Assembly: GCA_005882635.1 (NCBI GenBank)
Contig: VBFG01000046.1
Span: 1-52,223 of the forward strand
Reading direction: 5' to 3'
Origin: Chloroflexota bacterium
GTDB lineage: Bacteria > Chloroflexota > Limnocylindria > Limnocylindrales > CSP1-4
DNA: 52,223 nt
Shown here: piece by piece, positions 10,547 through 23,486 of the stretch
How the letters are laid out: the number at the start of each line of letters is the position of its first letter
Position numbering within the stretch: position 1 is the stretch's first letter
The notes under the pieces: generated by a model
What the model was told of the DNA's origin: nothing
Databases searched by the model: none
Seen by the model: only the letters and a program-made list of their open reading frames with translations
Made by a program: the position numbers and the translations under genes

Positions 10547-10656
10547 GGCCCGCGGATTGTGGCACGCCCCCGTTCGGGTGCGGCCGCCGTGGTTCGGGCG
10601 CCGACCGTCGCTGGGGCGACCCCTGGCGGCCCCGGCGGCGGTTCGTGTCTACGCGG

Positions 10657-10971
10657 TCAGGCGCTCAACCGCTCGGCGATGTGGATCAACGTCTCGGCCA
10701 CGGCCCGCAAGTCTTCGTGGGGGACGGCCAGGACCTGGGGCTCGTGCTCCGGAAGCTCGGGAACGATCACGAGGGTCGCGGGCCGGGTTCGCTCGATGTC
10801 GAACTGGATCCGGCGCAGCTCCTCGATCGGAAGGGCCATCGCGGTCCTCGACTCGGCGGCCACGATGACCCGCCGGTTCGTGACGACGATCCGCGCGGCG
10901 CGGGCTCGGGCCTCGGCTGCCACGACCTCGTCCGCGTGGAGCAGCTCGTTCAGATTCACGTCGTCGAGCAT
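10657..10971 (-). CDS. Small PH-domain-like hypothetical protein (104 aa)
   Basis: The start chosen is ATG 10971 (MLDDVNLNELLHADEVV), with GAGGA about 9 nt upstream; longer readings overlap low-complexity frames. The pattern LHADEVV...IVVTNRRVIVAAESRTAMALPIEEL... resembles bacterial PH (bPH) domains, which have a TN-R-RVI strand-turn. It is soluble with no signal peptide. Nothing in the context indicates a partner. The domain call is moderate and comes from strand pattern only. Confidence 0.6.
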   Translation of the reverse strand: MLDDVNLNELLHADEVVAAEARARAARIVVTNRRVIVAAESRTAMALPIEELRRIQFDIERTRPATLVIVPELPEHEPQVLAVPHEDLRAVAETLIHIAERLSA

Positions 10972-11084
10972 GGCTGGTTGTCCTCGGGGTCTGACTGCGG
11001 CACCTGCCGGCCGCCGGCCAGCCCATTCTCCATCGATCGCCAGCCGAGCGCGAGTGGCGCCCCGTGGATCGGAGGGCGGCACGC

Positions 11085-11090
11085 TATTCT
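11085..11090 (+). promoter_or_regulatory. -10 box (TATTCT) for cyanophycinase
   Basis: TATTCT is 28 nt upstream of the GTG at 11119, giving a leader of roughly 20 nt without a clear Shine-Dalgarno sequence. Confidence 0.35.
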
Positions 11091-11118
11091 CAGCCGAGCC
11101 GCAGCGGGTACCTCATCT

Positions 11119-11955
11119 GTGACCGACGGAACCGTCATCATCATCGGCGGCGCGGAGGACAAGGTCCGCGACCGGGTGATCCTGAACCGGTTCGTGACCC
11201 TGGCCGGTGGTCGGGACGCGACGATTGTCGTGGTCTCGACGGCATCGAGCCTCGGCACCGAGGCCGGCGAACGCTACCGCCACATCTTCGGTGACCTCGG
11301 GGTGTCGACCGTCCGGCCCTTGCACGCTGCGACGCGACCCCAGGCGAACGACGAGTCGGCCGCGCTTGCCCTGCGCGATGCGAGCGGCGTGTTCCTGACC
11401 GGCGGCAACCAGCTGAAGCTCGCCTCGATCGTCGGTGGGACGCGCCTGGCGGACGCGATGCTCGAGCGCTTCCGGCACGGCGCGGTGATGGCCGGCACGA
11501 GCGCGGGGGCGTCGGCGATGAGCAGCCACATGATCGCGTTCGGCGCATCGGGCGCGACGCCCAAGCACCGGATGGCCCAGATCGCCGCCGGTCTCGGGAT
11601 GCTGCCGGGCGTGATCGTCGACCAGCACTTCCAGCAGCGGAACCGGCTGGGCCGACTCCTCAGCCTGATCGCGCAGAACCCGTCGCTGTTGGGCCTCGGC
11701 GTCGACGAGGACACGGCCGGTGTCGTCGGGCCGGATCACGTCATGGAGGTCATCGGGCGGGGCAGCGTGACGGTGGTCGACGGATCCGCCTCCGAGACGG
11801 ACGCCTGGGAGGTCAAGGGCCACAAGCCGCTGATGATCAGCAACGTGATCCTGCACTCCTTGCCGTCGGGCTATCAGTTCGACCTCCGCCGTCGCCAACG
11901 CCTCGCGACCCCGAGCCTCCACGCGATCTCCGGCGGCGAGGCGGCCTCGAGCTAA
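11119..11955 (+). CDS. cphB: Cyanophycinase
   Basis: The 278-aa product matches cyanophycinase (peptidase family S51): GTVIIIGGAEDK at the N-terminus, the nucleophile elbow AGTSAGASAMSSHM with the catalytic Ser, and DQHFQQRNRLGRLL, the conserved His/Arg region. The enzyme is an exo-acting serine peptidase that releases beta-Asp-Arg dipeptides from cyanophycin. No signal peptide is present, so it acts on the intracellular storage polymer. The GTG at 11119 puts the conserved region at once after the start; upstream extension is low-complexity. Cyanophycin synthetase follows on the same strand, so storage and mobilisation genes are paired. Confidence 0.95.
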   Translation: MTDGTVIIIGGAEDKVRDRVILNRFVTLAGGRDATIVVVSTASSLGTEAGERYRHIFGDLGVSTVRPLHAATRPQANDESAALALRDASGVFLTGGNQLKLASIVGGTRLADAMLERFRHGAVMAGTSAGASAMSSHMIAFGASGATPKHRMAQIAAGLGMLPGVIVDQHFQQRNRLGRLLSLIAQNPSLLGLGVDEDTAGVVGPDHVMEVIGRGSVTVVDGSASETDAWEVKGHKPLMISNVILHSLPSGYQFDLRRRQRLATPSLHAISGGEAASS

Positions 11956-12282
11956 GCGCGGCACCGTCCCGGTCCTGACACGACAGACCAGTGTCCGGCA
12001 GGAATCGATGCCTGACAGCGATCACCGCTCCCGAATGGCGACTCGAATTCGGCTCATCCGACGGCGCCCGTCCGCCGTGAGTCTGCCCGGACTCGGCATG
12101 GACACACTGTGAGCGTGACCCCGTCCCCCGATCGACCGAACCCGCGCGCCGATGAGAGCGAGGAGGCGCCCTTCCGAGTCTGCAGGGCATCAAGGCGTCC
12201 AGGAGTGGCAGGCAAGGGCCGTGGCGCCGGGCGCCGAGCGGCGGGTACACTCGGGGACCCGATCGGACCGCAGGAGGGACCC
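11956..12282. other. Intergenic region between cphB and cphA
   Basis: About 330 bp without a supported gene. It holds the cphA promoter (TACACT, 12246-12251) and Shine-Dalgarno sequence (AGGAGG, 12272-12277). I see no strong hairpin or repeat. The cphA frame is open upstream to 12109, but that extension has no start context. Confidence 0.6.
12246..12251 (+). promoter_or_regulatory. -10 box (TACACT) for cphA
   Basis: TACACT is 31 nt upstream of the GTG at 12283. AGGAGG follows at 12272-12277, so the cphA transcript should have a short leader with a strong ribosome binding site. Confidence 0.5.
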
Positions 12283-15219
12283 GTGGCTCGGACCGCACCC
12301 CAGCCGCGCGAGAAGAAGATCCGGGCTCGAGCCGCAGCGCCAGACCCGCTCGCGCCGGCCCCGCTCACGCCGGCCTCGGTGGCGCCGACGGCCACGAGGC
12401 CGCGCCGCCGCACGACGATCGGTCCATCGGACGTCGGCGGTCCTCAACCAAGCCTCCGGATCCTCGAGACGCGGATCCTCCGCGGTCCGAACTACTGGGC
12501 GCGCGAGCCGGTCGTGCGGATGCTCGTCGACCTCGGGTCGCTCGAGGAGTTCCCGAGCAACAAGATCCCCGGCTTCACCGAGGCGCTGGTCGAGCTGCTG
12601 CCGAGCCTCGAGGACCACGCCTGCTCCCTCGGCCGCCGGGGTGGCTTCATCACCCGTCTCCGCGAGGGGACGTGGGCTGGCCACATCGCCGAGCACATCG
12701 CGCTGGAGCTCCAGAACCTCGCCGGCACGGACGTCCGCCACGGCAAGACCCGGACGATCGGCGAGTACGGCCGCTACAACGTGATCTACGAGTACCGCGA
12801 GGAGAACGTCGGGATCGAGGCGGGCAAGATCGCCGTCGCCCTCGTCAACCATCTCGTCGCGCCGACCGACGACCGTGTGGCGATCGACTTCATGGCGGAG
12901 CTCGAGCGCCTCATCCGGCTCGCCGAGCGGTCCGCGTTCGGGCCGTCGACCCAGGCGATCCTGGACGAGGCCGCGTCGCGCGACATCCCCTACATCCGCC
13001 TCGACCGCCACTCGCTCGTGCAGCTCGGGCTCGGTGTCCACCAGCAGCGGATCCGGGCGACGATGACCTCGAAGACGTCCGGGATCGCCGTCGACATCGC
13101 GAGCGACAAGAGCCTGACGAACCGCCTGCTGGACTCGGCCGGCCTGCCCGTCCCCAAGAGCACGGTCGTCGATACCGAGGACGCGACGGTCGAGGCGGCG
13201 CTCCGGATCGGTTACCCGTGCGTCGTCAAGCCGCTCGACGGCAATCACGGTCGAGGCGTCCACCTCGATCTCCGCTCCGAGGAGGCCGTCCGGGCCGCGT
13301 TCCATGGCGCCCGCGCGGAGAGCCGTAGCGGCGACCTCGTCGTCGAGAGCTACGTCGCGGGGAACGACTACCGCTGCCTCGTCATCGGCGGGAAGGTCGC
13401 GGCGATCGCCCAGCGCGTGCCGGCGAGGGTGGTCGGCGACGGCGAGCACAGCATCCGCCAGCTGGTCGACACCGCCAATGCCGATCCGCGGCGCGGCATC
13501 GGCCACGAGAAGGTCCTGACCCGGATCAAGGTCGACGAGGCGGCCGAGGCGCTCCTCCGCGACCAGGGCTTCGGGCTCGACGACGTGCCGCCGAAGGACA
13601 CCTTCGTGAAGCTCGCCCTGACCGGCAACATGTCGACCGGGGGGACCTCGATCGACCGGACGATCGAGGCGCATCCGGACAATGTCGAGATCGCGGAGAC
13701 GGCGGCCCAGATCGTCGGGCTCGACATCGCCGGCATCGACTTCATCTGCCCCGACATCGCGACCCCGGTCCGCGAGACGGGCGGCGCGATCGTCGAGGTC
13801 AATGCCGCGCCGGGCTTCCGGATGCACACCCACCCGACCGAGGGCGAGCCGCAATACGTCGCCCGGCCGGTGATCGACGGCCTGTTCCCGCCCGGCAGCC
13901 CATCGCGGATCCCGATCATCGCCGTCACCGGCACGAACGGGAAGACGACCACCGTCCGGATGATCGCCCACATCCTCAAGCTGAAGGGCAAACGGGTCGG
14001 GATGACCTCGACCGACGGCATCGTGATCGACGGCCGGTTGATCAAGAAGGGCGACATGTCGGGCCCGAAGTCGGCCCAGATGGTTCTCCAGAACCCGACC
14101 GTCGACACCGCCGTCTTCGAGGTCGCCCGGGGCGGGATCCTGCGTGAGGGCCTGGGCTACGACCGCAACGACGTCGCGGTCGTGACGAACGTCACCGGCG
14201 ACCATCTCGGGCTCGGCGGGATCGACTCGATCGGCCAGCTGGCGAACGTCAAGGGCGTCATCGTCGAGGCCGTGCCCCGATCGGGCAGCGCGGTCCTCAA
14301 CGCCGACGACGGCCACGTCTACCGGATGGGCCGGCACTGTGCCGGCCGGGTCGTCCTGTTCAGCATGGCCACCGACAAGGGCGAGGACGGCTACGACCGC
14401 GTCGACGGCCACGCGTCCCGTGGCAACGCCGCGTTCGTCCTCCAGCCGGGACCCGAGGGCGAGCTGATCGTCCTCCGCCACGGGCCCCGGACGATGCCGG
14501 TCCTGTACACCCACCTGATCCCGGCGACGTTCGGCGGGCGGGCCCGGATGAACGTGGCGAATGCGCTGGCCGCGGCGGCGGCCGCCTGGGCGGCGGGAGC
14601 CCACCTCCACGACATCCGCCAGGGCCTCCGGACGTTCTCGACGTCGTTCTTCCAGGCACCGGGCCGGCTCAACCTGCTCGACGTCGGCGGCATCCGGGTG
14701 GTGATCGACTACTGCCACAACGTCGACGGGATGCGGAAGCTCGCGGATTTCGTCGACCGGATGATGACCGAGCCACAGTCGAAGGCCGGCCGGATCGGGC
14801 CCTCCTCGAACGGCCACGCCCGGAGCGGCCGGGCGATCGGCGTCATCGGGATCCCCGGCGACCGGCGCGACGACGACCAGCACGAGTTCGGTTCGATCGC
14901 GGCGCGGGCATTCGACGAGATCATCGTCCGCGAAGACAAGAACCTCCGGGGCCGAGCGCCGGGCGTCTCGGCCGGCAACGTCGTCGACGGCGTGCGTGCC
15001 GCACGGGCGAGCGGCGCGCGGGCGCTCAAGGCCGAGAAGATCCTCGATGAGCTCACGGCCGTCCGGACGGCGCTCCGCCGGGCCGCCCCGGGCGATCTGG
15101 TCGTCTGCTGCGTCGACAACGCGATCGCGGTCTACCGCGAGGCAATGGGCGCCGCCGGCTCCGCTCGCGGCGCGACCGCGTTCGCCGACCCGGGCGAGCT
15201 CGAGGTCCCGGAGGGCTGA
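12283..15219 (+). CDS. cphA: Cyanophycin synthetase
   Basis: The 978-aa protein has the full CphA1 order. After a basic, Pro/Ala-rich extension of about 57 aa comes the N-domain (from LRILETRILRGPNYWAREPV, about residue 58), then an ATP-grasp domain (about 265-530, with KPLDGNHGRGV) that adds Asp to the backbone, then a Mur-ligase-like domain (Walker loop VTGTNGKTTTVRM near 549) that adds Arg to the side chain. The C-terminal part has DYCHNVDGM and a final Rossmann-like region. It is slightly longer than usual because of the extension. The GTG start at 12283 is fixed by AGGAGG 5 nt upstream. It polymerises Asp and Arg into intracellular granules and lies tail-to-tail with its truncated paralogue. 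Confidence 0.96.
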   Translation: MARTAPQPREKKIRARAAAPDPLAPAPLTPASVAPTATRPRRRTTIGPSDVGGPQPSLRILETRILRGPNYWAREPVVRMLVDLGSLEEFPSNKIPGFTEALVELLPSLEDHACSLGRRGGFITRLREGTWAGHIAEHIALELQNLAGTDVRHGKTRTIGEYGRYNVIYEYREENVGIEAGKIAVALVNHLVAPTDDRVAIDFMAELERLIRLAERSAFGPSTQAILDEAASRDIPYIRLDRHSLVQLGLGVHQQRIRATMTSKTSGIAVDIASDKSLTNRLLDSAGLPVPKSTVVDTEDATVEAALRIGYPCVVKPLDGNHGRGVHLDLRSEEAVRAAFHGARAESRSGDLVVESYVAGNDYRCLVIGGKVAAIAQRVPARVVGDGEHSIRQLVDTANADPRRGIGHEKVLTRIKVDEAAEALLRDQGFGLDDVPPKDTFVKLALTGNMSTGGTSIDRTIEAHPDNVEIAETAAQIVGLDIAGIDFICPDIATPVRETGGAIVEVNAAPGFRMHTHPTEGEPQYVARPVIDGLFPPGSPSRIPIIAVTGTNGKTTTVRMIAHILKLKGKRVGMTSTDGIVIDGRLIKKGDMSGPKSAQMVLQNPTVDTAVFEVARGGILREGLGYDRNDVAVVTNVTGDHLGLGGIDSIGQLANVKGVIVEAVPRSGSAVLNADDGHVYRMGRHCAGRVVLFSMATDKGEDGYDRVDGHASRGNAAFVLQPGPEGELIVLRHGPRTMPVLYTHLIPATFGGRARMNVANALAAAAAAWAAGAHLHDIRQGLRTFSTSFFQAPGRLNLLDVGGIRVVIDYCHNVDGMRKLADFVDRMMTEPQSKAGRIGPSSNGHARSGRAIGVIGIPGDRRDDDQHEFGSIAARAFDEIIVREDKNLRGRAPGVSAGNVVDGVRAARASGARALKAEKILDELTAVRTALRRAAPGDLVVCCVDNAIAVYREAMGAAGSARGATAFADPGELEVPEG

Positions 15220-15225
15220 CGGCGA

Positions 15226-17052
15226 TCAGGCGCGGCGCGGGCGGGTCTGCATCCGTGGGATCAGCGTCGTGAGCTCGGTCGCGACGTCGATCGGGCGCGC
15301 CCCCAGCTCGGCCAGCAGGGCGAAAACTTCCTCGCGTTCCTCATGGCACATCAGGACGATGACCCGGGCCGCGTCGGGTCGGGTCGAGCCGTCGCTCCGC
15401 GCCAGCTCGCCGCGGAGCGCCGCCGTCTCGGACTCGTAGACCGTCACGTCCGAGGTCGGTCGCCTGGCCGACGCGATCCCGGCCATGATCTCGCCGACCA
15501 TCGACTCGCGGCTCCGGCCCCGGAGGTACTTGAGCGTCTCCTTGATGGCGACCCGCTGGGCACGCTTCGCGGCGATCCGGCCGATCCCGCGGAGTGTGTC
15601 GTCCGGCCGATCTCCGGCGGTGCCGACGATCGCGGTCACGGGCGCCGCTCGCCCGGCGGCGCCGGCCGCGATCCCCTCGGCGACGTCGAGGATCGCGGTC
15701 ACGCCCGCCTCGTTGTGGGCGAAGTCGACGATCACGATGCGGGACCCGAGCCGGAACAGGTTGAGCCGGCCCGGTGACCGCTCGGACGAGGGCTGGAAGT
15801 CGGTGAGCCCGTCGCGGAGCTGGGCGAGCGTCACGCCGAGACCGCGCGCCGCGCCGGCCGCCGCGAGCACGTTCGCGACGTTGTGGCGCGCGAGGCCCCC
15901 AAGCGTGATCGGCACCCGATCGACCTCGACGATCCGATGCTCCGTCACCTCGCCTGCCCGGGCGTGGCCGGGACCGTGACCGTTCGAGGCGTCTCGCATC
16001 GGGGCGCCGCCATGGCTGCCGTCGATCTCGACGAGCCAGCCGTCGCGCAGGACGTAGCCGCGGCCGCCCGCGGCGACCGCCCGTCGGACCGCCGCCGCCG
16101 CGCTTCCGCCCTCGCCGAGCGAGAACAGGGCGACGTGGGCGCGCACCCGCCGGCCGATCGCCGCCACGAGCGCGTCGTCCGCGTTCAGCACGGCCCAGCC
16201 GTCCGGTCGCGTCGCGCGGGCGACGGTCGACTTGACCTCCGCGAGCTCGGGCAGGGTGTGGATCCCCTGTAGGTCGAGGTGGTCGGACGAGACGTTCGTG
16301 ATGACGCTGGCGTCATTCGACTCGTAGCCCATCCCGCGCAGCACGATCCCGCCGCGGGCGGTCTCGAGGACGCCGACGTCGAGATCGGACCGCTCGAGGA
16401 TCTGCCAGGCCCCGCCCGGCCCGGTCCAGTCGCCGGGCTCGACGAGGCGCTCGTCGACGAGGACCCCGTCCGAGGTCGTCGTCCCGACCCGCTTCCCGGC
16501 GATCTTGAGGATGTGCGTGATCAGCCGGGTCACCGTGCTCTTGCCGTTCGTACCGGTGATCGATACGATCGGGATCCGCCGATCGGCGTCGCGGATCCAG
16601 GATGGCGGCGTCGCCCGCGCTTCGGCGATCCTGGCGACCCACCGGCCGACGAGGCGCTCCTGCGATCCGGTCAGACGCGCACGCCGAGCCGGCGAGACGT
16701 CCCGCTCGGCGAGGGCCAGGGCCGCCTCCGCGATCGTTCGAGCCCGCTCGGCGCCTGTCCACGGGTAGGTCACGATCCAGTGGCCCGGATCCGACGATCG
16801 ATGGACGGCGACGCCGCCGACCCCCTCCTCGTGGTCGGCCCGGAGCCGTCGGACCCAGCGGACGAGGGCGTCGATCGAGAGGGGCCACGCCTTCGCCGGG
16901 ACGTCGGCGCTGAGCCGGACGAGTGCGTGCCGGCCCGGGCTGCGCTGGCCGTACCACGTCCGGCGCCGACCCACGGCGACCTCGATCTTCACCACCGGCT
17001 CGAGCCGGTAGACGTTCGGGCCCTCGAGCAGTCGGATCTCGACGAGTCGCAC
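15226..17052 (-). CDS. Cyanophycin-synthetase-like ligase lacking the ATP-grasp domain
   Basis: The 608-aa protein starts with VEIRLLEGPNVYRLEPVVKI, clearly related to the CphA N-domain (RILRGPNYWAREPVVRM in the neighbour), and residues about 89-122 also parallel the end of that domain. About 45 residues later comes a complete Mur-ligase module: ITGTNGKSTVTRLITHIL (Walker loop about 167-173), ETARGGIVLRGMGY, ITNVSSDHLDLQG, DFAHNEAG and KETLKYLRGRSRE. The entire ATP-grasp domain between them is missing. The GTG at 17052 sits 9 nt after TATTCT. The family predicts ATP-dependent amide ligation of an amino acid, but without ATP-grasp it cannot extend an Asp backbone. It may modify cyanophycin or its dipeptides, or make another product; its exact role is unknown. 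Confidence 0.85.
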   Translation of the reverse strand: MRLVEIRLLEGPNVYRLEPVVKIEVAVGRRRTWYGQRSPGRHALVRLSADVPAKAWPLSIDALVRWVRRLRADHEEGVGGVAVHRSSDPGHWIVTYPWTGAERARTIAEAALALAERDVSPARRARLTGSQERLVGRWVARIAEARATPPSWIRDADRRIPIVSITGTNGKSTVTRLITHILKIAGKRVGTTTSDGVLVDERLVEPGDWTGPGGAWQILERSDLDVGVLETARGGIVLRGMGYESNDASVITNVSSDHLDLQGIHTLPELAEVKSTVARATRPDGWAVLNADDALVAAIGRRVRAHVALFSLGEGGSAAAAVRRAVAAGGRGYVLRDGWLVEIDGSHGGAPMRDASNGHGPGHARAGEVTEHRIVEVDRVPITLGGLARHNVANVLAAAGAARGLGVTLAQLRDGLTDFQPSSERSPGRLNLFRLGSRIVIVDFAHNEAGVTAILDVAEGIAAGAAGRAAPVTAIVGTAGDRPDDTLRGIGRIAAKRAQRVAIKETLKYLRGRSRESMVGEIMAGIASARRPTSDVTVYESETAALRGELARSDGSTRPDAARVIVLMCHEEREEVFALLAELGARPIDVATELTTLIPRMQTRPRRA

Positions 17053-17061
17053 GGTCGGCCG

Positions 17062-17067
17062 AGAATA
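17062..17067 (-). promoter_or_regulatory. -10 box (TATTCT) for the CphA-like ligase
   Basis: On the minus strand TATTCT ends 9 nt before the GTG at 17052 with no intervening Shine-Dalgarno, predicting a near-leaderless mRNA. The M20 promoter (17118-17123) lies 50 bp away, facing the other direction. Confidence 0.5.
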
Positions 17068-17117
17068 GCGCCGCGGTCCAGCGTCCGACCGTCGATGTCG
17101 CACGGGATCCGCGCACC

Positions 17118-17123
17118 TAGACT
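17118..17123 (+). promoter_or_regulatory. -10 box (TAGACT) for the M20 peptidase
   Basis: TAGACT ends 7 nt before the ATG at 17131. This predicts transcription starting at or next to the A of the start codon. Confidence 0.5.
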
Positions 17124-17130
17124 GGATGAG

Positions 17131-18384
17131 ATGGAAACCATGGCCGCACCGGGCGCGGGCGTGCGGGACGAGGAGCTCGACGCGCTGCGGGCCGCGATCC
17201 GCGCGACCGAGCCGGCCTACCTCGCCGACCTCGAACGGCTGGTCAACATCGATTGCGGCTCGTACACACCCGCCGGCGTCGATCAGGTCGGGGCGTTCGT
17301 GGCCGAGTTCCTCGCCGCCGCTGGCGCCACCGTCGAACGCCGTCCTGATCCGGCTGGTCGGCTCGGGGCGACGATCGTCGGGACGTGGGCCGGCGAGCGC
17401 GGGACGCCGGGCGGTCCGCGCCTCCTCCTGATCGGGCACATGGATACGGTCTTCGACCCCGGGACGGCCGCGGCCCGGCCGTTCTCGATCGACGCCGACG
17501 GGATCGCCAGCGGGCCCGGCGTGACCGACATGAAGTCCGGTCTCCTGGCCGGGCTCTACGCGCTGCGGGCGCTCGTCGCCTCGGGCCCGCTCCCGTTCGA
17601 GCGGCTCACGTTCGTCGCCAATCCCGACGAGGAGATCGGCTCGCCGGGGTCGACCCCGCACATCCGCGGCATCGCGGCCGATGCCGATGCCTGCCTCGTC
17701 CTCGAGTGCGCCCGCGCCAACGGCGACATCGTGTCGTCGCGGAAGGGCATCCTCCACACGGAGGTGACGATCCACGGCCGGGCGGCGCACGCCGGCGTCG
17801 AGCCGGAGAAGGGCCGATCCGCGATCCTCGCCGCAGCCGATCTCGTCCGCCGCCTGCACGATCTGAACGGCCGCTGGGACGGGGTCACCGTCAACGTCGG
17901 CGTCATCTCCGGCGGCACCCGCCCGAACGTCGTTGCCGAGCGCTGCTCGCTCGAGGTCGACCTGCGGGCGGTCCGCCGCGAGGATCTCGAGACCGCCGAG
18001 GCCGAGATCCGGTCGTCGCTGGCCTTCCTGTCCGTTCCGGATACTCACGCGGACGTCGAGGACGTCGCACGGTGGTGGCCGATGGAGAAGCTTGACCGGT
18101 CGGGCCGCCTCGTCGAGCACGCCCGGGCCATCGCCGGACGGCTGGGCTTCGAGCTCCGCGACGCCGCGACGGGCGGCGCCTCCGACGCGAACACCACGTC
18201 CGGCATGGGCGTGCCGACGATCGACGGGCTCGGCCCGATCGGCGGCCTCGACCACTCGCCGGCCGAGTACCTGGAGGTCGTCTCGATCGTGCCCCGGACG
18301 ACGCTCCTTGCCGCGCTCATCCTCGCGATCGGTCGGGACCCCGAGGTGCGCCGATGGCGCGAGGAGCCCGCCGGCGGTGGCTGA
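17131..18384 (+). CDS. M20 family metallopeptidase (CPG2/ArgE-like)
   Basis: This 417-aa protein has the di-zinc M20 set: LIGHMDTVFD (His ligand and Asp), GVTDMKSG (bridging Asp), NPDEEIGSPG (catalytic and ligand Glu), CLVLECAR (Glu ligand) and GLDHSPAEYL (final His). The dimerisation lid includes KGILHTEVTIHGRAAHAG. It hydrolyses C-terminal or side-chain amide bonds of small peptides or acylated amino acids; glutamate carboxypeptidase is the closest named type. It starts 78 bp from the divergent CphA-like ligase and overlaps ridA by 8 nt. This neighbourhood makes a beta-Asp-Arg or related dipeptide a reasonable but unproven substrate. No signal peptide, so cytoplasmic. Confidence 0.88.
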   Translation: METMAAPGAGVRDEELDALRAAIRATEPAYLADLERLVNIDCGSYTPAGVDQVGAFVAEFLAAAGATVERRPDPAGRLGATIVGTWAGERGTPGGPRLLLIGHMDTVFDPGTAAARPFSIDADGIASGPGVTDMKSGLLAGLYALRALVASGPLPFERLTFVANPDEEIGSPGSTPHIRGIAADADACLVLECARANGDIVSSRKGILHTEVTIHGRAAHAGVEPEKGRSAILAAADLVRRLHDLNGRWDGVTVNVGVISGGTRPNVVAERCSLEVDLRAVRREDLETAEAEIRSSLAFLSVPDTHADVEDVARWWPMEKLDRSGRLVEHARAIAGRLGFELRDAATGGASDANTTSGMGVPTIDGLGPIGGLDHSPAEYLEVVSIVPRTTLLAALILAIGRDPEVRRWREEPAGGG

Positions 18385-18778
18385 GCGGCGGCTCGTGACG
18401 TCGGGCGGGCCGTACGAGGCCCGCTACGGCTACAGCCGGGCCGTCGCGGTGGGCGACTCGTGCTGGGTCGCCGGGACGACCGACGCTGGACCCGACGGTC
18501 GGTCGCGCCACCCGGCTGACGCCGCCGCCCAGGCGCGAGCGGCGTTCGCGATCGGGATCGCCGCGCTCGAGGAGGCGGGCTTCAGTGCCGCCGACGTCGT
18601 CCGGACGCGGATGTACATCGTGCCCGGGGTCGACCCGGCCACCGTCGCGGCGGTCAACGGCGAGCTGTTCGCGACGATCCGGCCGGCGTCGACCCTCGTC
18701 CGGGTCGCCGGGCTCATCGACCCGTCGCTGCTCGTCGAGGTCGAGCTCGAGGCGCGGCGGGCCTCGGCCGGTCGATAG
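18377..18778 (+). CDS. RidA/YjgF family protein
   Basis: The GTG at 18377 overlaps the end of the M20 gene by 8 nt, implying translational coupling. The 133-aa protein shows the RidA pattern: an aromatic strand (YEARYGYSRAVAVGD), WVAGTTDAGPDG, a helix QARAAFAIGIAALEEAG, DVVRTRMYIV with the conserved Arg, and the terminal LLVEVELEARRA with the conserved Glu. RidA proteins are trimeric enamine/imine deaminases that detoxify reactive intermediates of amino-acid metabolism. Pairing with an amino-acid-releasing peptidase fits that role. Subfamily not determined. Confidence 0.88.
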   Translation: MAERRLVTSGGPYEARYGYSRAVAVGDSCWVAGTTDAGPDGRSRHPADAAAQARAAFAIGIAALEEAGFSAADVVRTRMYIVPGVDPATVAAVNGELFATIRPASTLVRVAGLIDPSLLVEVELEARRASAGR

Positions 18779-18914
18779 AGGACCAGGACCTGGTCGGGTC
18801 CGGCCGGAAGCTCTACGGATTCCATGGTTCCCACCCTCGTTCAACCGGTCGACACCTTGGTTCTGCGGGTGACGCTGGGCGGACTCTACCGGCCGGCCAT
18901 CTGGGGCAGTCGCG

Positions 18915-19247
18915 TCAGTCGAGGCCTACCGCGCGGCCTGCGGCGGCGATCGCGACGGCTGCGACCAGCCCGAGGAGGAGACTCCGCCGCCAGTAGACGA
19001 GCCCGATGCTGACGACGACCGCGATCCACGAGACGCCAAGGGCGATCGACGCGCGGCCGTCCTCGCCCGTGGCGATCACCGTGTTCACCGCCGCGAGCGC
19101 GGCCAGGATCGCGGGTCCGACGAGCCGGAGGTACTCCAGCGCTCGACGTGGCAGCCGCTCCAGGGCCGGCGCGAGCAGGCCAACCGCTCGGGACGGGTAG
19201 GTCACGGCCCACATGACGAACGCGAGCGGAACGAGATCGGTGCTCAT
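18915..19247 (-). CDS. azlD: AzlD-like branched-chain amino acid exporter small subunit
   Basis: The 110-aa membrane protein has four hydrophobic segments, with a conserved-type core PRRALEYLRLVGPAILAALA and the tail LLGLVAAVAIAAAGRAVG. It matches AzlD, the small partner of AzlC in LIV-E type amino acid exporters. Its ATG overlaps the azlC stop (ATGA), so the two are coupled. Between it and the convergent ridA (18779-18914) I see no gene, only a short palindrome GACCAGG-A-CCTGGTC at 18781-18795. Confidence 0.85.
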   Translation of the reverse strand: MSTDLVPLAFVMWAVTYPSRAVGLLAPALERLPRRALEYLRLVGPAILAALAAVNTVIATGEDGRASIALGVSWIAVVVSIGLVYWRRSLLLGLVAAVAIAAAGRAVGLD

Positions 19248-19909
19248 GATTCCTCACGCGGGGGGACGGCGAGGCCGACCAGCGGGCCGACGACGCCACC
19301 CGCGATCACGCCCGCCGTGGCGCTCACCGCCAGCGAGACTGCGACACCGATCAGCGCGCCGGCCATCGCTGCGGCCAGCTCGCGGCGACCCGTGATCAGG
19401 CCGACCGCAAGGCCGCCCATCGCCGCCGGGAAGATCACATCGATGCCGAGCGTCCGGGGCTCGACGATCGCCGCCCCGACCGTCACCCCGAGCAGCGTCG
19501 CGACGTTCCACGGGATCAGCGTCGTCACGATCGCCGGGTACCAGTAGCCGACGGGGTCGAACCGACCGATCCGCCGGAAATGGGCGACCGACAGGGCGAA
19601 GGATTCGTCGGTCAGGAGGTGGGCGGCTGCGGCGCGCTCGGGCAACGACCGGCCGCGGAACCAGGGCGCGAGCGCGGCCGAGTACAGGACGTGGCGGGCG
19701 TTCAGGAGGAACGTGAGGACCGCGATCGCGGGCCACGAGACGCCGGCGACGAGATAGCCGATCGCCGCAAACTGGGCGGCGCCCCCGAACGCGACCAGGC
19801 TCATCGCCGACGCCTCGATCGGCGAGAAGTCGGCGCGCGTCCGGGCGGTCAGGCCATAGACGAAGCCGAAGCCAAGTGCACCCACGACGATGCCGAGCCC
19901 GTCGAGCAC
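19244..19909 (-). CDS. azlC: AzlC-like branched-chain amino acid exporter large subunit
   Basis: Signatures include the first membrane segment GIVVGALGFGFVYGLTAR, MSLVAFGGAAQFAAIGYL and FLLNARHVLYSAALAPW, all typical of AzlC. Together with AzlD it forms a permease exporting branched-chain or related amino acids. The start is uncertain. GTG 19909 places the first membrane segment right at the N-terminus (221 aa). A CTG at 19981 would overlap the upstream stop as CTGA, give 245 aa and match the usual length better, but CTG starts are rare. No ATG, GTG or TTG lies between them. Confidence 0.85.
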   Translation of the reverse strand: MLDGLGIVVGALGFGFVYGLTARTRADFSPIEASAMSLVAFGGAAQFAAIGYLVAGVSWPAIAVLTFLLNARHVLYSAALAPWFRGRSLPERAAAAHLLTDESFALSVAHFRRIGRFDPVGYWYPAIVTTLIPWNVATLLGVTVGAAIVEPRTLGIDVIFPAAMGGLAVGLITGRRELAAAMAGALIGVAVSLAVSATAGVIAGGVVGPLVGLAVPPREES

Positions 19910-19977
19910 GAGCCGCCGGCGCGAGGCGCGCAGCGCGGCCGGGTCGATCGCCCCCGAAGAGGCTGCGAGGTCCGGGG

Positions 19978-20250
19978 TCAGCGGAGGAAGGTCTTGCCGC
20001 AGGTGCCGTCGCAGACGACGAAGAGGGCGTGCTTGTCGAGCGCGTACCCCGCGACGTGGAGGAGGCCGGGACAGCCGGCGGTCGGGCACTTCCAGACCCA
20101 CCACCGCTCGTTCTGGTCGACCGGTGTCGTCTCGGCCTTCAGCGTGTCGGCCATGCCCTCATGGGTGGAGATGAACGACGCCACCGTCGTGGCCCGGTCG
20201 GCCTCCGTCTCGCTCGTGTACGGGTAGTTCTGACCGACGTTCGAGGTCAC
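19978..20250 (-). CDS. Hypothetical protein with two Cys pairs (90 aa)
   Basis: The GTG at 20250 has GGAG about 8 nt upstream; the longer frame to 20388 is unsupported. The product contains WKCPTAGCPGLLHVAG and FVVCDGTCGKTFL: four cysteines in two CX(3-4)C pairs, suggesting a small zinc ribbon. It lies just upstream of azlC and azlD on the same strand and ends where azlC may begin, so the three form a likely operon. I do not recognise a named family. Confidence 0.6.
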   Translation of the reverse strand: MTSNVGQNYPYTSETEADRATTVASFISTHEGMADTLKAETTPVDQNERWWVWKCPTAGCPGLLHVAGYALDKHALFVVCDGTCGKTFLR

Positions 20251-20280
20251 GCGCCGACTCCGCGAGCGATGGAATGGGAA

Positions 20281-20319
20281 ACCGGTGGCGGCGTCGTGTG
20301 AGCGCAGCCCGCCACCGGT
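20281..20319. repeat. 11-bp inverted repeat between ggt and the Cys-pair gene
   Basis: ACCGGTGGCGG at 20281-20291 and CCGCCACCGGT at 20309-20319 are perfect reverse complements with a 17-nt loop. It lies downstream of ggt and just upstream of the gene starting at 20250 (both minus). It could terminate or attenuate read-through, though no T-run follows. Confidence 0.5.
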
Positions 20320-20361
20320 CACGGCAGGGTACTCCCCAAATGCAAGGCCTGTCGCGGAGGA

Positions 20362-20430
20362 GCGACGAACACGGTCGGGTGCGATCAACGCAGTCGGGTG
20401 GTCGCCGATCGGCGACGAACGCAGTCTGGG
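20362..20430. repeat. Three imperfect 19-bp direct repeats
   Basis: GCGACGAACACGGTCGGGT (20362-20380), GCGATCAACGCAGTCGGGT (20381-20399) and GCGACGAACGCAGTCTGGG (20412-20430) share at least 15 of 19 positions between successive copies. The first two are directly tandem and the third is offset by 12 nt. They lie in the short intergenic region after ggt. Possible roles are an operator array or a decayed repeat; three copies with unequal spacing are not a CRISPR. Confidence 0.55.
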
Positions 20431-20457
20431 ATCCGCCGACGAGCGGCCGACCGCTCC

Positions 20458-22131
20458 TCACCAGACGGCGGGCAGGCCCGCGCTCCGCGGGTCCGTTGCC
20501 GCTGCCAGCGAGCCCACCCCGTCTTCGGCGGCCGGGCCGCCGTCGACGAGCTCGACGGCGTGGGCGTGGCCGAGAGCGCCGTTGAACGGGATCGTTCGCA
20601 GCAACGGGTGACCCTTCGCTTCGAGGGCATCGAGGACTGCTGCCGGGAACCGTCGCTCGGCCCGGACATTGACCGGCGGCGCGAAGTGCTCCTCGCCGTC
20701 GACGAACCAGCGCGGCGCCCCGACCGCGGTGGCGATGTCGACGCCGCCATCGACGAGGGCCGACACGACCTGGGCGTGGATCTGTGGCTGGGCGTCGCCG
20801 CCCATCGACCCGGTCACGACCCACGGCCGCCGCTCCCCGCTCCGGAACAGCATCCCGGGGAGGAGCGTGTGGAGGGTCCGCTTCCGCGGCGCGAGGGCAT
20901 TCGGGTGGTCAGGGTCGAGGCTGAAGTACGACCCTCGGTTCTGGTAGTGGATCCCGGTCGCCGGATCGACCACGCCGGAGCCGAAGCCCATGTAGTTCGA
21001 CTCGATCAGGCTGACCGCGTTCCCGTCCCCATCGACCGTCGCGAGGTAGATCGTCCCGCCGCCCCGCGGCAGCGTCGCGGCCGGCGGCCGGGCGGCGCGA
21101 TCGGGGTCCACGAGCCGGGCGAGCTCCGCGGCGTGCGCCTTGGACAGGAGCGTGTCGACCGGGATGTCGACGAAGTCCGGATCCGACAGGTGGAAGTCGC
21201 GGTCGGCCATCGCGAGCTTCGAGGCTTCGATCCCGAGATGGATCCAGCGGGCATCGTCGACGCCGTCCGGCCCGAACGCCGCGGCGGCGGGCGGCTCGAA
21301 CGCCTCGAGCACGTTCAGGATCTCCAGCGCCACGATCCCCGAGCTGTTCGGCGGGTGGGTCGTGACGCGGACGCCGCGATAGGTCGTCTCGATCGGCTCG
21401 GTCCAGGTCGAGGTGTGCTCGCGGAGGTCCTCGACGGTGATGGTCGAGCCGACCGCCGCCAGGCAGCTCGCCTGGCGCTCGGCGACCTCCCCGTCGTAGA
21501 AGTCGTCGAACCCGACGTCCGCCAGTCGCTCGAGCGTCGCCGCCAGGGCTGGCAGCCGCACTCGCTCGCCCGGCCGCCAGGGGCGGCCGCTCGGGCGGTA
21601 GACCTGCTCGAAGCCCGAGCCGTCGCCGAGCGCTGCGCGGACGTCCGGCAGCACCCCCTCGACGGCGCTGATGAAGCCATCCCAGGCGGGGAACCCCTCC
21701 CACGCCAGTTCGATCGCGGCAGCGAGGACCTCGGCCCGCGACAGCCGGCCGTGTCGCCCGTGGGCGTCGCCCCAGGAGCGGACGGCGCCGGGGACCGTGA
21801 CCGACAGCGGACCGCGATAGGGGAGGGTCGCGAGCCCGCTTGCCCGGAGGGCCTCGGGATCGGCGGCGGCGGGCGACCGGCCGGAGCCGTTCAGGGAGGT
21901 CTCCCGGCCGTCGGCCTCGTCCCAGATCAGCCAGAACGCGTCACCGCCGACCCCACAGCCGGACGGCTGGACGACGCCCAGCACGGCGTTGGTCGCGATC
22001 GCCGCGTCGACGGCGTGCCCGCCCGCGCGGAGGATCGCCAGACCGGCCGCGGTGGCGAGGTGATGCGGCGCGACGACCGCTCCCCGGGCGCCGCGGACGA
22101 GCGGCATCGGGACGAGGGGCCGGTCGGGCAT
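20458..22131 (-). CDS. ggt: Gamma-glutamyltransferase / glutathione hydrolase family
   Basis: The 557-aa protein carries the Ntn-hydrolase GGT pattern: ILRAGGHAVDAAIATNAVL near the N-terminus, GGDAFWLIWD, NSSGIVALEILNVLE, and the autocleavage region GGGTIYLATVDGDGNAVSL, where the Thr would become the new N-terminal nucleophile of the small subunit. GSMGGDAQPQ further on matches the oxyanion-hole area. It transfers or hydrolyses gamma-glutamyl groups. No signal peptide is visible, unlike secreted GGTs, so it may be cytoplasmic or belong to a related acylase branch. The ATG at 22131 lies 7 nt after TACAAT, and its promoter is back-to-back with that of the MFS gene. Confidence 0.88.
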   Translation of the reverse strand: MPDRPLVPMPLVRGARGAVVAPHHLATAAGLAILRAGGHAVDAAIATNAVLGVVQPSGCGVGGDAFWLIWDEADGRETSLNGSGRSPAAADPEALRASGLATLPYRGPLSVTVPGAVRSWGDAHGRHGRLSRAEVLAAAIELAWEGFPAWDGFISAVEGVLPDVRAALGDGSGFEQVYRPSGRPWRPGERVRLPALAATLERLADVGFDDFYDGEVAERQASCLAAVGSTITVEDLREHTSTWTEPIETTYRGVRVTTHPPNSSGIVALEILNVLEAFEPPAAAAFGPDGVDDARWIHLGIEASKLAMADRDFHLSDPDFVDIPVDTLLSKAHAAELARLVDPDRAARPPAATLPRGGGTIYLATVDGDGNAVSLIESNYMGFGSGVVDPATGIHYQNRGSYFSLDPDHPNALAPRKRTLHTLLPGMLFRSGERRPWVVTGSMGGDAQPQIHAQVVSALVDGGVDIATAVGAPRWFVDGEEHFAPPVNVRAERRFPAAVLDALEAKGHPLLRTIPFNGALGHAHAVELVDGGPAAEDGVGSLAAATDPRSAGLPAVW

Positions 22132-22138
22132 GGCCGCG

Positions 22139-22144
22139 ATTGTA
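22139..22144 (-). promoter_or_regulatory. -10 box (TACAAT) for ggt
   Basis: On the minus strand TACAAT ends 7 nt before the ATG at 22131. It is 13 bp from the oppositely directed TACGAT box of the MFS gene. Confidence 0.55.
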
Positions 22145-22157
22145 GGTGCCGGGCCGG

Positions 22158-22163
22158 TACGAT
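22158..22163 (+). promoter_or_regulatory. -10 box (TACGAT) for the second MFS gene
   Basis: TACGAT ends 6 nt before the GTG at 22170. The -35 of this promoter would have to lie inside ggt, so the two divergent promoters share the same DNA. Confidence 0.5.
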
Positions 22164-22169
22164 TCCTCC

Positions 22170-23486
22170 GTGCGATCCCTCACCGCCGTCTACGTCGGGA
22201 CGTTCACCCTGCGCTTCAGCACCGGGCTGACGGGCGGACTGCTCCTGTTCTACCTGGCCCGGATGCACACGCACTTCGGTGGGCCACGCGTCGACGAGAC
22301 GACGCTGGCGATCATGACCGCCAGCTTCTACGCGGCCGAGCTCGTCCTCGCCACGCCCTTCGGCCTCCTGTCGGACCGGATCGGGCACCACCGGGTCATG
22401 CAGGTCGGCCCGCTGTTCGGGGTGATCGCCGCCGTCCTGACCTGGGCGACGACGAACCTCGCCGTCATCGGCGGAACGCGCATCCTCGAGGGCGCGTCGA
22501 CGGCAGCCTCGATCCCATCGATCCTCGGCTTCATCGCGATGGCGACGGCGGGCGACGAGCTGCTGCGCGGTCGGGCGTCGGCCCGGTTCGAAGGGGCGAC
22601 CCTTGCCGGGATCGGCGCGGGCGCGGTCGCGGCCGGCATCCTGTTCGATGGCATCCCCCATGTCTGGGGCGGGCTCCATCGCGACGCGTTCCTGGTGAAC
22701 GCCGGGCTCTACACGATCTCGCTCCTCATCTACCGCTACGGCGTCGGCGAGCCGCCCGGCGAGCGCGAGGCCCTGGCGGGCGAGCACAGCGGCTGGCGCC
22801 GCTACGGGAAGATCCTGCTCAGCTCCCACGTCTGGCTCCTCGCGCCGACGTGGATCGCGATCAATGCCGCCCTCGGGCTGTGGTCGTCGCAGTCGCTGTT
22901 CCAGCTGATCCGGGAGCCGGACCCGCGCTTCGCCGACCAGGCCCTGATGGGCGGCTTCGTCGGGTCGCAGATCGCGCTCGGCCTGGGGGTCGCCTTGATC
23001 GTCTTCTTCGCCGGGCTCGCGTTCTGGGGGGAGCGCTTCAAGCGCTACCGGCGGACGACGATCATCGCCTACGGGATCGGGGGCGGCGCGATCAGCGTCG
23101 TCGGCGCCGGGCTCGTCAACCACGGCGCGTCGATCCCGATCCTCGCGGCCGGGGCGGGGCTGATCGCGGCGTTCGGGCTGTTCGTCCTCGCCGGCGCGAC
23201 GCCGGCCGCGCTCGGTCTCCTCGCCGACATGAGCGAGGCCTATCCGTCCGACCGCGGCGCGATCATGGGCCTCTACTCGGTCTTCCTCGCCCTCGGCCAG
23301 ATCGCCGGGAGCTTCATCGGCGCCCAGGCCGCCGCCCGGGCTGGGATCGACGGGATCCTCGTCGCAACGCTCATCCTGCTCGGCGTCGCCCTCGTCCCGC
23401 TCGGGCGACTGCGGCCCTTCGAGCACGTCGTGGGGACCGCGGCAGAGGGGCTCGGATCGGGACCGACCCGGGAATCGGCCGCCTGA
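22170..23486 (+). CDS. MFS transporter
   Basis: The 438-aa membrane protein has about 12 hydrophobic segments. The N-half contains the facilitator loop GLLSDRIGHHRVM, and segment 4 has GGTRILEGASTAASIPS. The C-half includes LGLLADMSEAYPSDRGAIMG. The GTG at 22170 is preferred because it follows TACGAT by 6 nt and puts the first membrane segment right after the start. The substrate is unknown. Its divergent partner is ggt, so transport of a gamma-glutamyl compound or its product is possible but speculative. Confidence 0.85.
   Translation: MRSLTAVYVGTFTLRFSTGLTGGLLLFYLARMHTHFGGPRVDETTLAIMTASFYAAELVLATPFGLLSDRIGHHRVMQVGPLFGVIAAVLTWATTNLAVIGGTRILEGASTAASIPSILGFIAMATAGDELLRGRASARFEGATLAGIGAGAVAAGILFDGIPHVWGGLHRDAFLVNAGLYTISLLIYRYGVGEPPGEREALAGEHSGWRRYGKILLSSHVWLLAPTWIAINAALGLWSSQSLFQLIREPDPRFADQALMGGFVGSQIALGLGVALIVFFAGLAFWGERFKRYRRTTIIAYGIGGGAISVVGAGLVNHGASIPILAAGAGLIAAFGLFVLAGATPAALGLLADMSEAYPSDRGAIMGLYSVFLALGQIAGSFIGAQAAARAGIDGILVATLILLGVALVPLGRLRPFEHVVGTAAEGLGSGPTRESAA

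Follow-up and report, generated by a model that had tools for sequence, protein, structure and literature searches.

Cyanophycin is a nitrogen-storage polymer that is made by CphA1 or CphA2 and broken down by cyanophycinase and an isoaspartyl dipeptidase. The work of CphA1 is split between two domains: the ATP-grasp (G) domain extends the backbone by aspartate, and the M domain attaches arginine to the side chain, the chain lying between the N domain and Mcore during the Mur reaction (PMC9427784). In most but not all CphA1, the N domain also has a Cx19HxxEH zinc-peptidase motif that acts as primer maker (PMC9262961). The second enzyme, CphA2, is described as cyanobacterial (PMC9262961, PMC9427784); it keeps the ATP-grasp domain and has neither the Mur P-loop nor the Mur lid (PMC9427784).

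We analysed a stretch of DNA of 52,223 nucleotides (hereafter the window) that carries, beside a complete cphA gene, a gene encoding an N domain joined to a Mur ligase module. The family of this protein (15226-17052) has no name, and we refer to it by a label of our own, NMUR. The features of the locus are as follows.

11134-11955, plus strand: cyanophycinase (TIGR02069), the homologous part of an open reading frame at 10645-11955
12109-15219, plus strand: full-length CphA1, the convergent partner of NMUR, with recognisable homology from about 12454
15226-17052, minus strand: NMUR gene, encoding a CphA-like Mur ligase without G domain, 608 amino acids, GTG start
15409-15771, minus strand: Mur ligase C-terminal domain (Pfam PF02875), residues 428-548, a weak match below cut-off
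15514-15543, minus strand: donor-side loop KETLKYLRGR, residues 504-513, with the family signature YLRGR
15847-16560, minus strand: Mur ligase central domain (Pfam PF08245), residues 165-402
16279-16284, minus strand: catalytic D257-H258, equivalent to D585-H586 of SuCphA1 (PMC9262961)
16534-16554, minus strand: intact P-loop (Walker loop) GTNGKST, residues 167-173
16573-16698, minus strand: linker, residues 119-160, in place of the whole ATP-grasp (G) domain of CphA1
16699-17052, minus strand: N domain, residues 1-118, homologous to the CphA1 N domain, without the HxxEH zinc-peptidase motif
17053-17130, no strand: short divergent intergenic region common to NMUR and M20, 78 bp between the two starts
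17131-18384, plus strand: M20 metallopeptidase, glutamate-carboxypeptidase-like, divergent from NMUR

The cyanophycinase gene precedes cphA in the window, and the CphA1 encoded there contains PF18921, several ATP-grasp families and both Mur domains according to Pfam, with a TIGR02068 score of 1145 bits. The NMUR and cphA genes stand tail to tail, as an earlier sequence-only reading of this DNA had described, with 6 bp between their ends. That reading also held that NMUR has an intact Mur ligase module and has lost ATP-grasp, and both statements were borne out. Pfam matched Mur_ligase_M on the protein with an E value of 3e-20 and Mur_ligase_C weakly, and the Walker loop and catalytic residues are in place, as are the features of the Mur ligase superfamily (GxxGK(T/S) P-loop, Mg ligands, carbamylated lysine, C-terminal domain). 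No ATP-grasp family was found among the Pfam or NCBIfam matches. The N domain ends at about residue 116 and the Mur core starts at about residue 160, leaving about 45 residues between them, in which one helix (129-144) is predicted. The closest NCBIfam model is TIGR02068 (cyanophycin synthetase), on which the protein of the window scores 363 bits and the members of the family score 335-363 bits, short of the equivalog cut-off of 850 bits; a family specific to NMUR was not found in Pfam or NCBIfam. The top matches among PDB sequences are the M domains of CphA1 (E 3e-68), and the identity with the neighbouring CphA is 36% over the Mur module (BLASTP). Measured against CphA1, NMUR has the MurE-like M domain, complete with P-loop and catalytic residues, and lacks the ATP-grasp (G) domain.

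The Pfam model of the N domain, PF18921, has no match on NMUR, so that a claim of homology for this domain required separate evidence. The sequence-only reading had based it on a signature pair, LLEGPNVYRLEPVV in NMUR and RILRGPNYWAREPVV in the CphA encoded at 12109-15219, and both segments are indeed present. Residues 1-58 of NMUR align to residues 116-174 of CphA, the start of its N domain (BLASTP, E 7e-6). We then compared the profile of 69 NMUR N-termini with that of 65 CphA1 N+G sequences using hhalign. The alignment spans the entire CphA1 N domain with a score of 88 (probability 97.5, P 8.9e-12); the highest of 40 column-shuffled controls scored 27 and the reversed profile 15. The AlphaFold model of full-length NMUR (pLDDT 87.9, pTM 0.89) has CphA1 structures as its top PDB matches (Foldseek E 4e-35), and 7lgj is superposed over both its N and M domains with a TM score of 0.73 by query length. 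When the N domain was modelled in isolation (pLDDT 89.3) and compared with 350,542 PDB chains, its first eight fold matches were CphA1, followed by CphA2; the best of these has a modest E value of 6.5e-4, and the global superposition has a large rmsd. The superposition on CphA1 that had been proposed as a check was thus obtained, and a chance resemblance of the GPN motif is ruled out by the shuffled, reversed and structural controls. The N domain of NMUR is homologous to that of CphA1. Its peptidase active site is lost: the full Cx19HxxEH motif is present in 46 of 65 CphA1 sequences, and also, as read by eye, in the CphA of the window, and the HxxEH core was found in none of 76 NMUR sequences. 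As PF18921 remains silent on it, the domain has diverged strongly, and its binding of the chain may have changed.

Among known systems, CphA1 (TIGR02068; PDB 7lg5, 7lgj, 7wae) is nearest to NMUR, with which it shares homologous N and MurE-like M domains, the best structural match and common gene clusters; it differs in having the ATP-grasp domain and Cx19HxxEH, in its donor loop and in its clade. CphA2 (PDB 7ta5, 8fxh) resembles NMUR in being a shortened CphA relative of about 600 amino acids with one active site, but NMUR is its mirror image. The active ATP-grasp and degenerate Mur site that characterise CphA2 were not found in NMUR, which has the opposite pattern, and an assignment of NMUR to CphA2 is ruled out, since PDB 7ta5 aligns over the ATP-grasp and not over the Mur domain. 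It could still be imagined that NMUR, being similar in size and having a single active site, repolymerises beta-Asp-Arg dipeptides, a chemistry that CphA2 performs (PMC10206079). CphA2 does so with the very ATP-grasp domain that NMUR lacks, having lost the Mur P-loop and lid (PMC9427784; 7ta5 over the G domain), and we regard this explanation as scarcely credible. From the mirror relation it follows instead that Mur activity alone can remain. MurE has its fold and chemistry in common with the Mur module of NMUR; its N-terminal UDP-sugar domain is absent from NMUR and identity is 16-22%, and it served as the outgroup in the trees.

Phylogenies of the Mur module place NMUR and CphA1 on opposite sides of one branch with a support of 100/98; support for the unity of NMUR is 23/0 in the tree with the distant MurE outgroup. 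Together with the family models, these trees place NMUR as a paralogue of CphA and do not group it with another characterised Mur ligase, which answers the check set by the sequence-only reading. An independent truncation of CphA1 in each lineage is ruled out by the 100/98 branch (23/0 with MurE as outgroup). In myxobacterial, gemmatimonadote and alphaproteobacterial NMUR, the N domain is followed by about 50 residues that align with the beginning of the G domain of CphA1. The score is 40.6 (probability 66, P 5.5e-5), where shuffled controls give no more than 24.5; an example is RLIDLIAAAEAHGVDILCDDDEVSIGHG in NMUR and AILDEAASRDIPYIRLDRHSLVQLGLG in CphA1. By its alignment, this segment looks like a relic of the deleted ATP-grasp domain, and it is gone from most Chloroflexota NMUR. 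An origin of NMUR from the CphA family through loss of ATP-grasp is supported.

Other proteins have arrived at a similar layout. Two plasmid-encoded CphA proteins, from Legionella adelaidensis (WP_058462805.1, L183:4335-6203) and Deinococcus deserti (WP_012695043.1, L184:4026-6200), likewise have an N domain and a Mur module without recognisable ATP-grasp. Unlike NMUR, they have an intact PF18921 N domain and no YLRGR, and they nest inside the CphA1 clade, which indicates independent losses. The Legionella gene sits with genes for cyanophycinase and isoaspartyl peptidase.

NMUR was found in Chloroflexota, Actinomycetota, Myxococcota, Gemmatimonadota and Alphaproteobacteria, that is in at least five phyla. 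The sequence-only reading had noted neither this breadth, nor the difference from CphA1 in donor-binding residues, nor the loss of the peptidase site from the N domain. In the class to which the window belongs, cphA (PF18921) is present in 71 of 177 genomes. In the family of the window (f1), NMUR is present in 51 genomes and cphA in 51, with both in 49, as counted by hand among the matches listed. The two genomes with NMUR only (G012 and G093) are contig-edge cases, and the two with cphA only (G025 and G077) are 60 and 64% complete. Further members occur in Thermomicrobia, Chloroflexia, actinobacterial, gemmatimonadote and myxobacterial genomes. CphA1 is present in all 17 genomes reached through the survey loci, of which 16 have a CphA1 above the TIGR02068 cut-off and one has it split over two contigs; the 17 include one cyanobacterial reference without NMUR. 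Across the f1 and survey genomes, no NMUR genome without cphA was found beyond the contig-edge cases. NMUR was detected in all 19 Actinomycetota genomes with a match (17 full-length, 2 fragments), in about 30 of 48 sampled Myxococcota, judged by the size and position of the open reading frame, and in 4 of 29 sampled Pseudomonadota, all four with cphA upstream. Of 13 Myxococcota loci that were fetched, 11 have YLRGR, and in 11 a cphA gene lies immediately upstream in the same orientation. In the cyanobacterial sample NMUR was found in 0 of 53, and it was not found in 117 cyanobacterial genomes.

The two genes are also often neighbours. Families f1 and f5 both preserve the order cyanophycinase (cphB)-cphA converging on NMUR-M20. 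The tie to cyanophycin loci seen in the sequence-only reading extends well past the window. Among 60 loci with both genes, some of which are repeat copies of one place (e.g., L071/L072, L038/L078, L098/L230, L099/L231), 47 are convergent and 13 same-strand. In cultured Ruegeria (NMUR of Ruegeria sp. THAF33: WP_152460471.1) and Shinella, a tight plasmid-borne operon consists of cyanophycinase, cphA and a gene annotated as "Mur ligase family protein". NMUR thus co-occurs near-strictly with cphA and is often adjacent to it. Two genomes may have more than one such locus. Genome G099 carries f1-type (L046) and f5-type (L063) cphB-cphA-NMUR-M20 clusters on different contigs; with an estimated contamination of 7%, it may be a mixed bin. 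In the Dermatophilaceae MAG G534, another NMUR-like match lies beside a CphA fragment on a second contig (C171:754-4259), which suggests a duplicated cph locus.

Several copies in Thermomicrobiales and in the Chloroflexota families f25 and f47 are located away from cphA, and those in Thermomicrobiales have a few recurrent neighbouring open reading frames that give no functional lead. Such copies would fit an enzyme that makes a different small molecule or peptide, for example a beta-aspartyl or gamma-glutamyl peptide, and is just co-regulated with cyanophycin. The strong divergence of the N domain and the presence of a gamma-glutamyltranspeptidase and an AzlC-type exporter near the cluster in f1 point the same way. 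Against this, genomes with NMUR and no cphA are contig-edge cases at most, and linkage to cphA is kept in convergent and operon arrangements across distant phyla; we judge this explanation unlikely. The downstream genes of the window (18398-23486) encode RidA, AzlC (19244-20104), gamma-glutamyltranspeptidase (20458-22131) and an MFS transporter (22146-23486). In much of f1, the cph cluster is succeeded by genes for RidA, AzlC, gamma-glutamyltranspeptidase, MFS transporter and DegV, whose order is conserved, and the RidA-AzlC-gamma-glutamyltranspeptidase-MFS order was not found in f5. The genes from RidA to MFS are a possible amino-acid handling module.

The Mur active site of NMUR is conserved. 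In 34 columns of the Mur module, the same residue is found in at least 95% of NMUR and of CphA1 alike, including G167, N169, G170, K171, T173, E230, D257, H258, K274, D443, H446, N447 and D481. These match the P-loop lysine, Mg ligand and catalytic Asp-His of SuCphA1 and TeCphA1 (PMC9427784, PMC9262961), and the carbamylated lysine of MurE has a counterpart by alignment. This conservation weighs heavily on the idea of a catalytically idle NMUR that assembles with CphA1 as a regulatory or structural partner and tunes its activity or granule formation. Retention of a paralogue beside its parent gene would suit such a role, and N and Mcore surfaces do take part in CphA1 assembly (PMC9427784). However, the P-loop lysine, Mg ligands, carbamylated-lysine position and Asp-His are invariant in NMUR, and the unused Mur site of CphA2 has decayed (PMC9427784), so that we consider an idle partner very improbable.

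The donor side differs between the two groups. YLRGR of NMUR takes the place of EDxxxRGR in CphA1 and DNPR in MurE. Position 506, the first Asp of DNPR, is acidic in 40 of 43 CphA1 and 2 of 33 NMUR sequences, and the second acidic position, 571, in 41 of 43 and 15 of 33, respectively. NMUR has an extra residue at 509, before LRGR, which is aromatic in 32 of 33 sequences, and the groups are further separated by a Ser-to-Gly change at 214 and a Phe-to-Ala/Pro change at 498. Net charge over the donor loop by itself distinguishes them only weakly (-0.33 against -0.76), and we therefore confined the argument to the two acidic positions that align. Their counterparts in S. aureus MurE, Asp-406 and Glu-460, hold the amine of the lysine side chain, and MurE mutants indicate that the donor motif by itself does not set specificity (PMC3829189). 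On this comparison, made by alignment to MurE, the donor of NMUR is probably not arginine, since the pocket is without its acidic pair. The rival view would be that NMUR is an auxiliary arginyl ligase, adding arginine to bare aspartate of cyanophycin for repair or to free aspartate as a beta-Asp-Arg primer. The whole Mur catalytic set is common to NMUR and CphA1, the chain-guiding N-M pair is retained, and there is a proposal that CphA1 itself forms trace amounts of beta-Asp-Arg in the absence of a primer (PMC9262961). The acidic donor-pocket positions conserved in CphA1 are nevertheless lost and the loop is one residue longer; moreover, Cx19HxxEH is already present in the CphA1 of this genome, so that primers should not be limiting. 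We find an arginyl ligase rather unlikely.

Taken together, the best overall explanation, to which we give an even chance, is that NMUR works as a ligase of the cyanophycin pathway and attaches an amino acid, probably other than arginine, to cyanophycin or a fragment of it. The retained N-M pair and the association of the gene with cphA make cyanophycin or a beta-Asp-Arg fragment the most likely acceptor. A chain or beta-Asp-Arg fragment would be bound in the groove between the N domain and the Mur core, the Mur active site would use ATP to phosphorylate a carboxylate on it, and an amino acid would be coupled to the activated carboxylate through its amine. Cyanophycin (or a fragment) would thereby be capped, branched or modified in some other way, with a backbone no longer than before. 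A modified or alternative storage polymer had been suggested by the sequence-only reading. The sequence-only reading had stated that such an enzyme cannot build the backbone. This fits the split of work between the G and M domains of CphA1 (PMC9427784), but it does not hold as a rule for the fold: the Mur-fold enzymes CapB and FPGS do polymerise, via side-chain bonds (families named in PMC11915815), so that NMUR could conceivably lengthen a chain in another manner.

The M20 gene is divergent from NMUR throughout the class of the window, and its product is PRK06133-like, below cut-off. Searches of the genome of the window and 20 relatives yielded neither IaaA (PF01112) nor IadA (TIGR01975 above cut-off), which makes M20 the best candidate at the locus for the cleavage of beta-Asp-Arg or for the removal of whatever NMUR would add. 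From its position and the absence of the other two, M20 may be the missing isoaspartyl dipeptidase of cyanophycin breakdown in Chloroflexota. A broader and more tentative proposal is that cyanophycin is decorated or capped with a non-arginine amino acid in many non-cyanobacterial producers, with NMUR as the writer and, in the class of the window, M20 as the eraser.

Deposited copies of NMUR are annotated "Mur ligase family protein", and no paper in the literature searched joins this name with cyanophycin; an earlier passing mention is possible, e.g., among Ralstonia cphA paralogues. The fold and the pathway are known, and the component itself is undescribed, with a broad genomic link to cphA. 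NMUR is thus a further unnamed component beside cphA in at least five phyla, cultured Ruegeria and Shinella included, and suggests an unrecognised step in bacterial nitrogen storage. Together with CphA2, it means that each half of CphA1 is kept alone in nature, as a mirror experiment. If NMUR modifies the polymer, a one-site ligase would be useful for making modified cyanophycin, and the chemical make-up of cyanophycin outside cyanobacteria would have been misdescribed.
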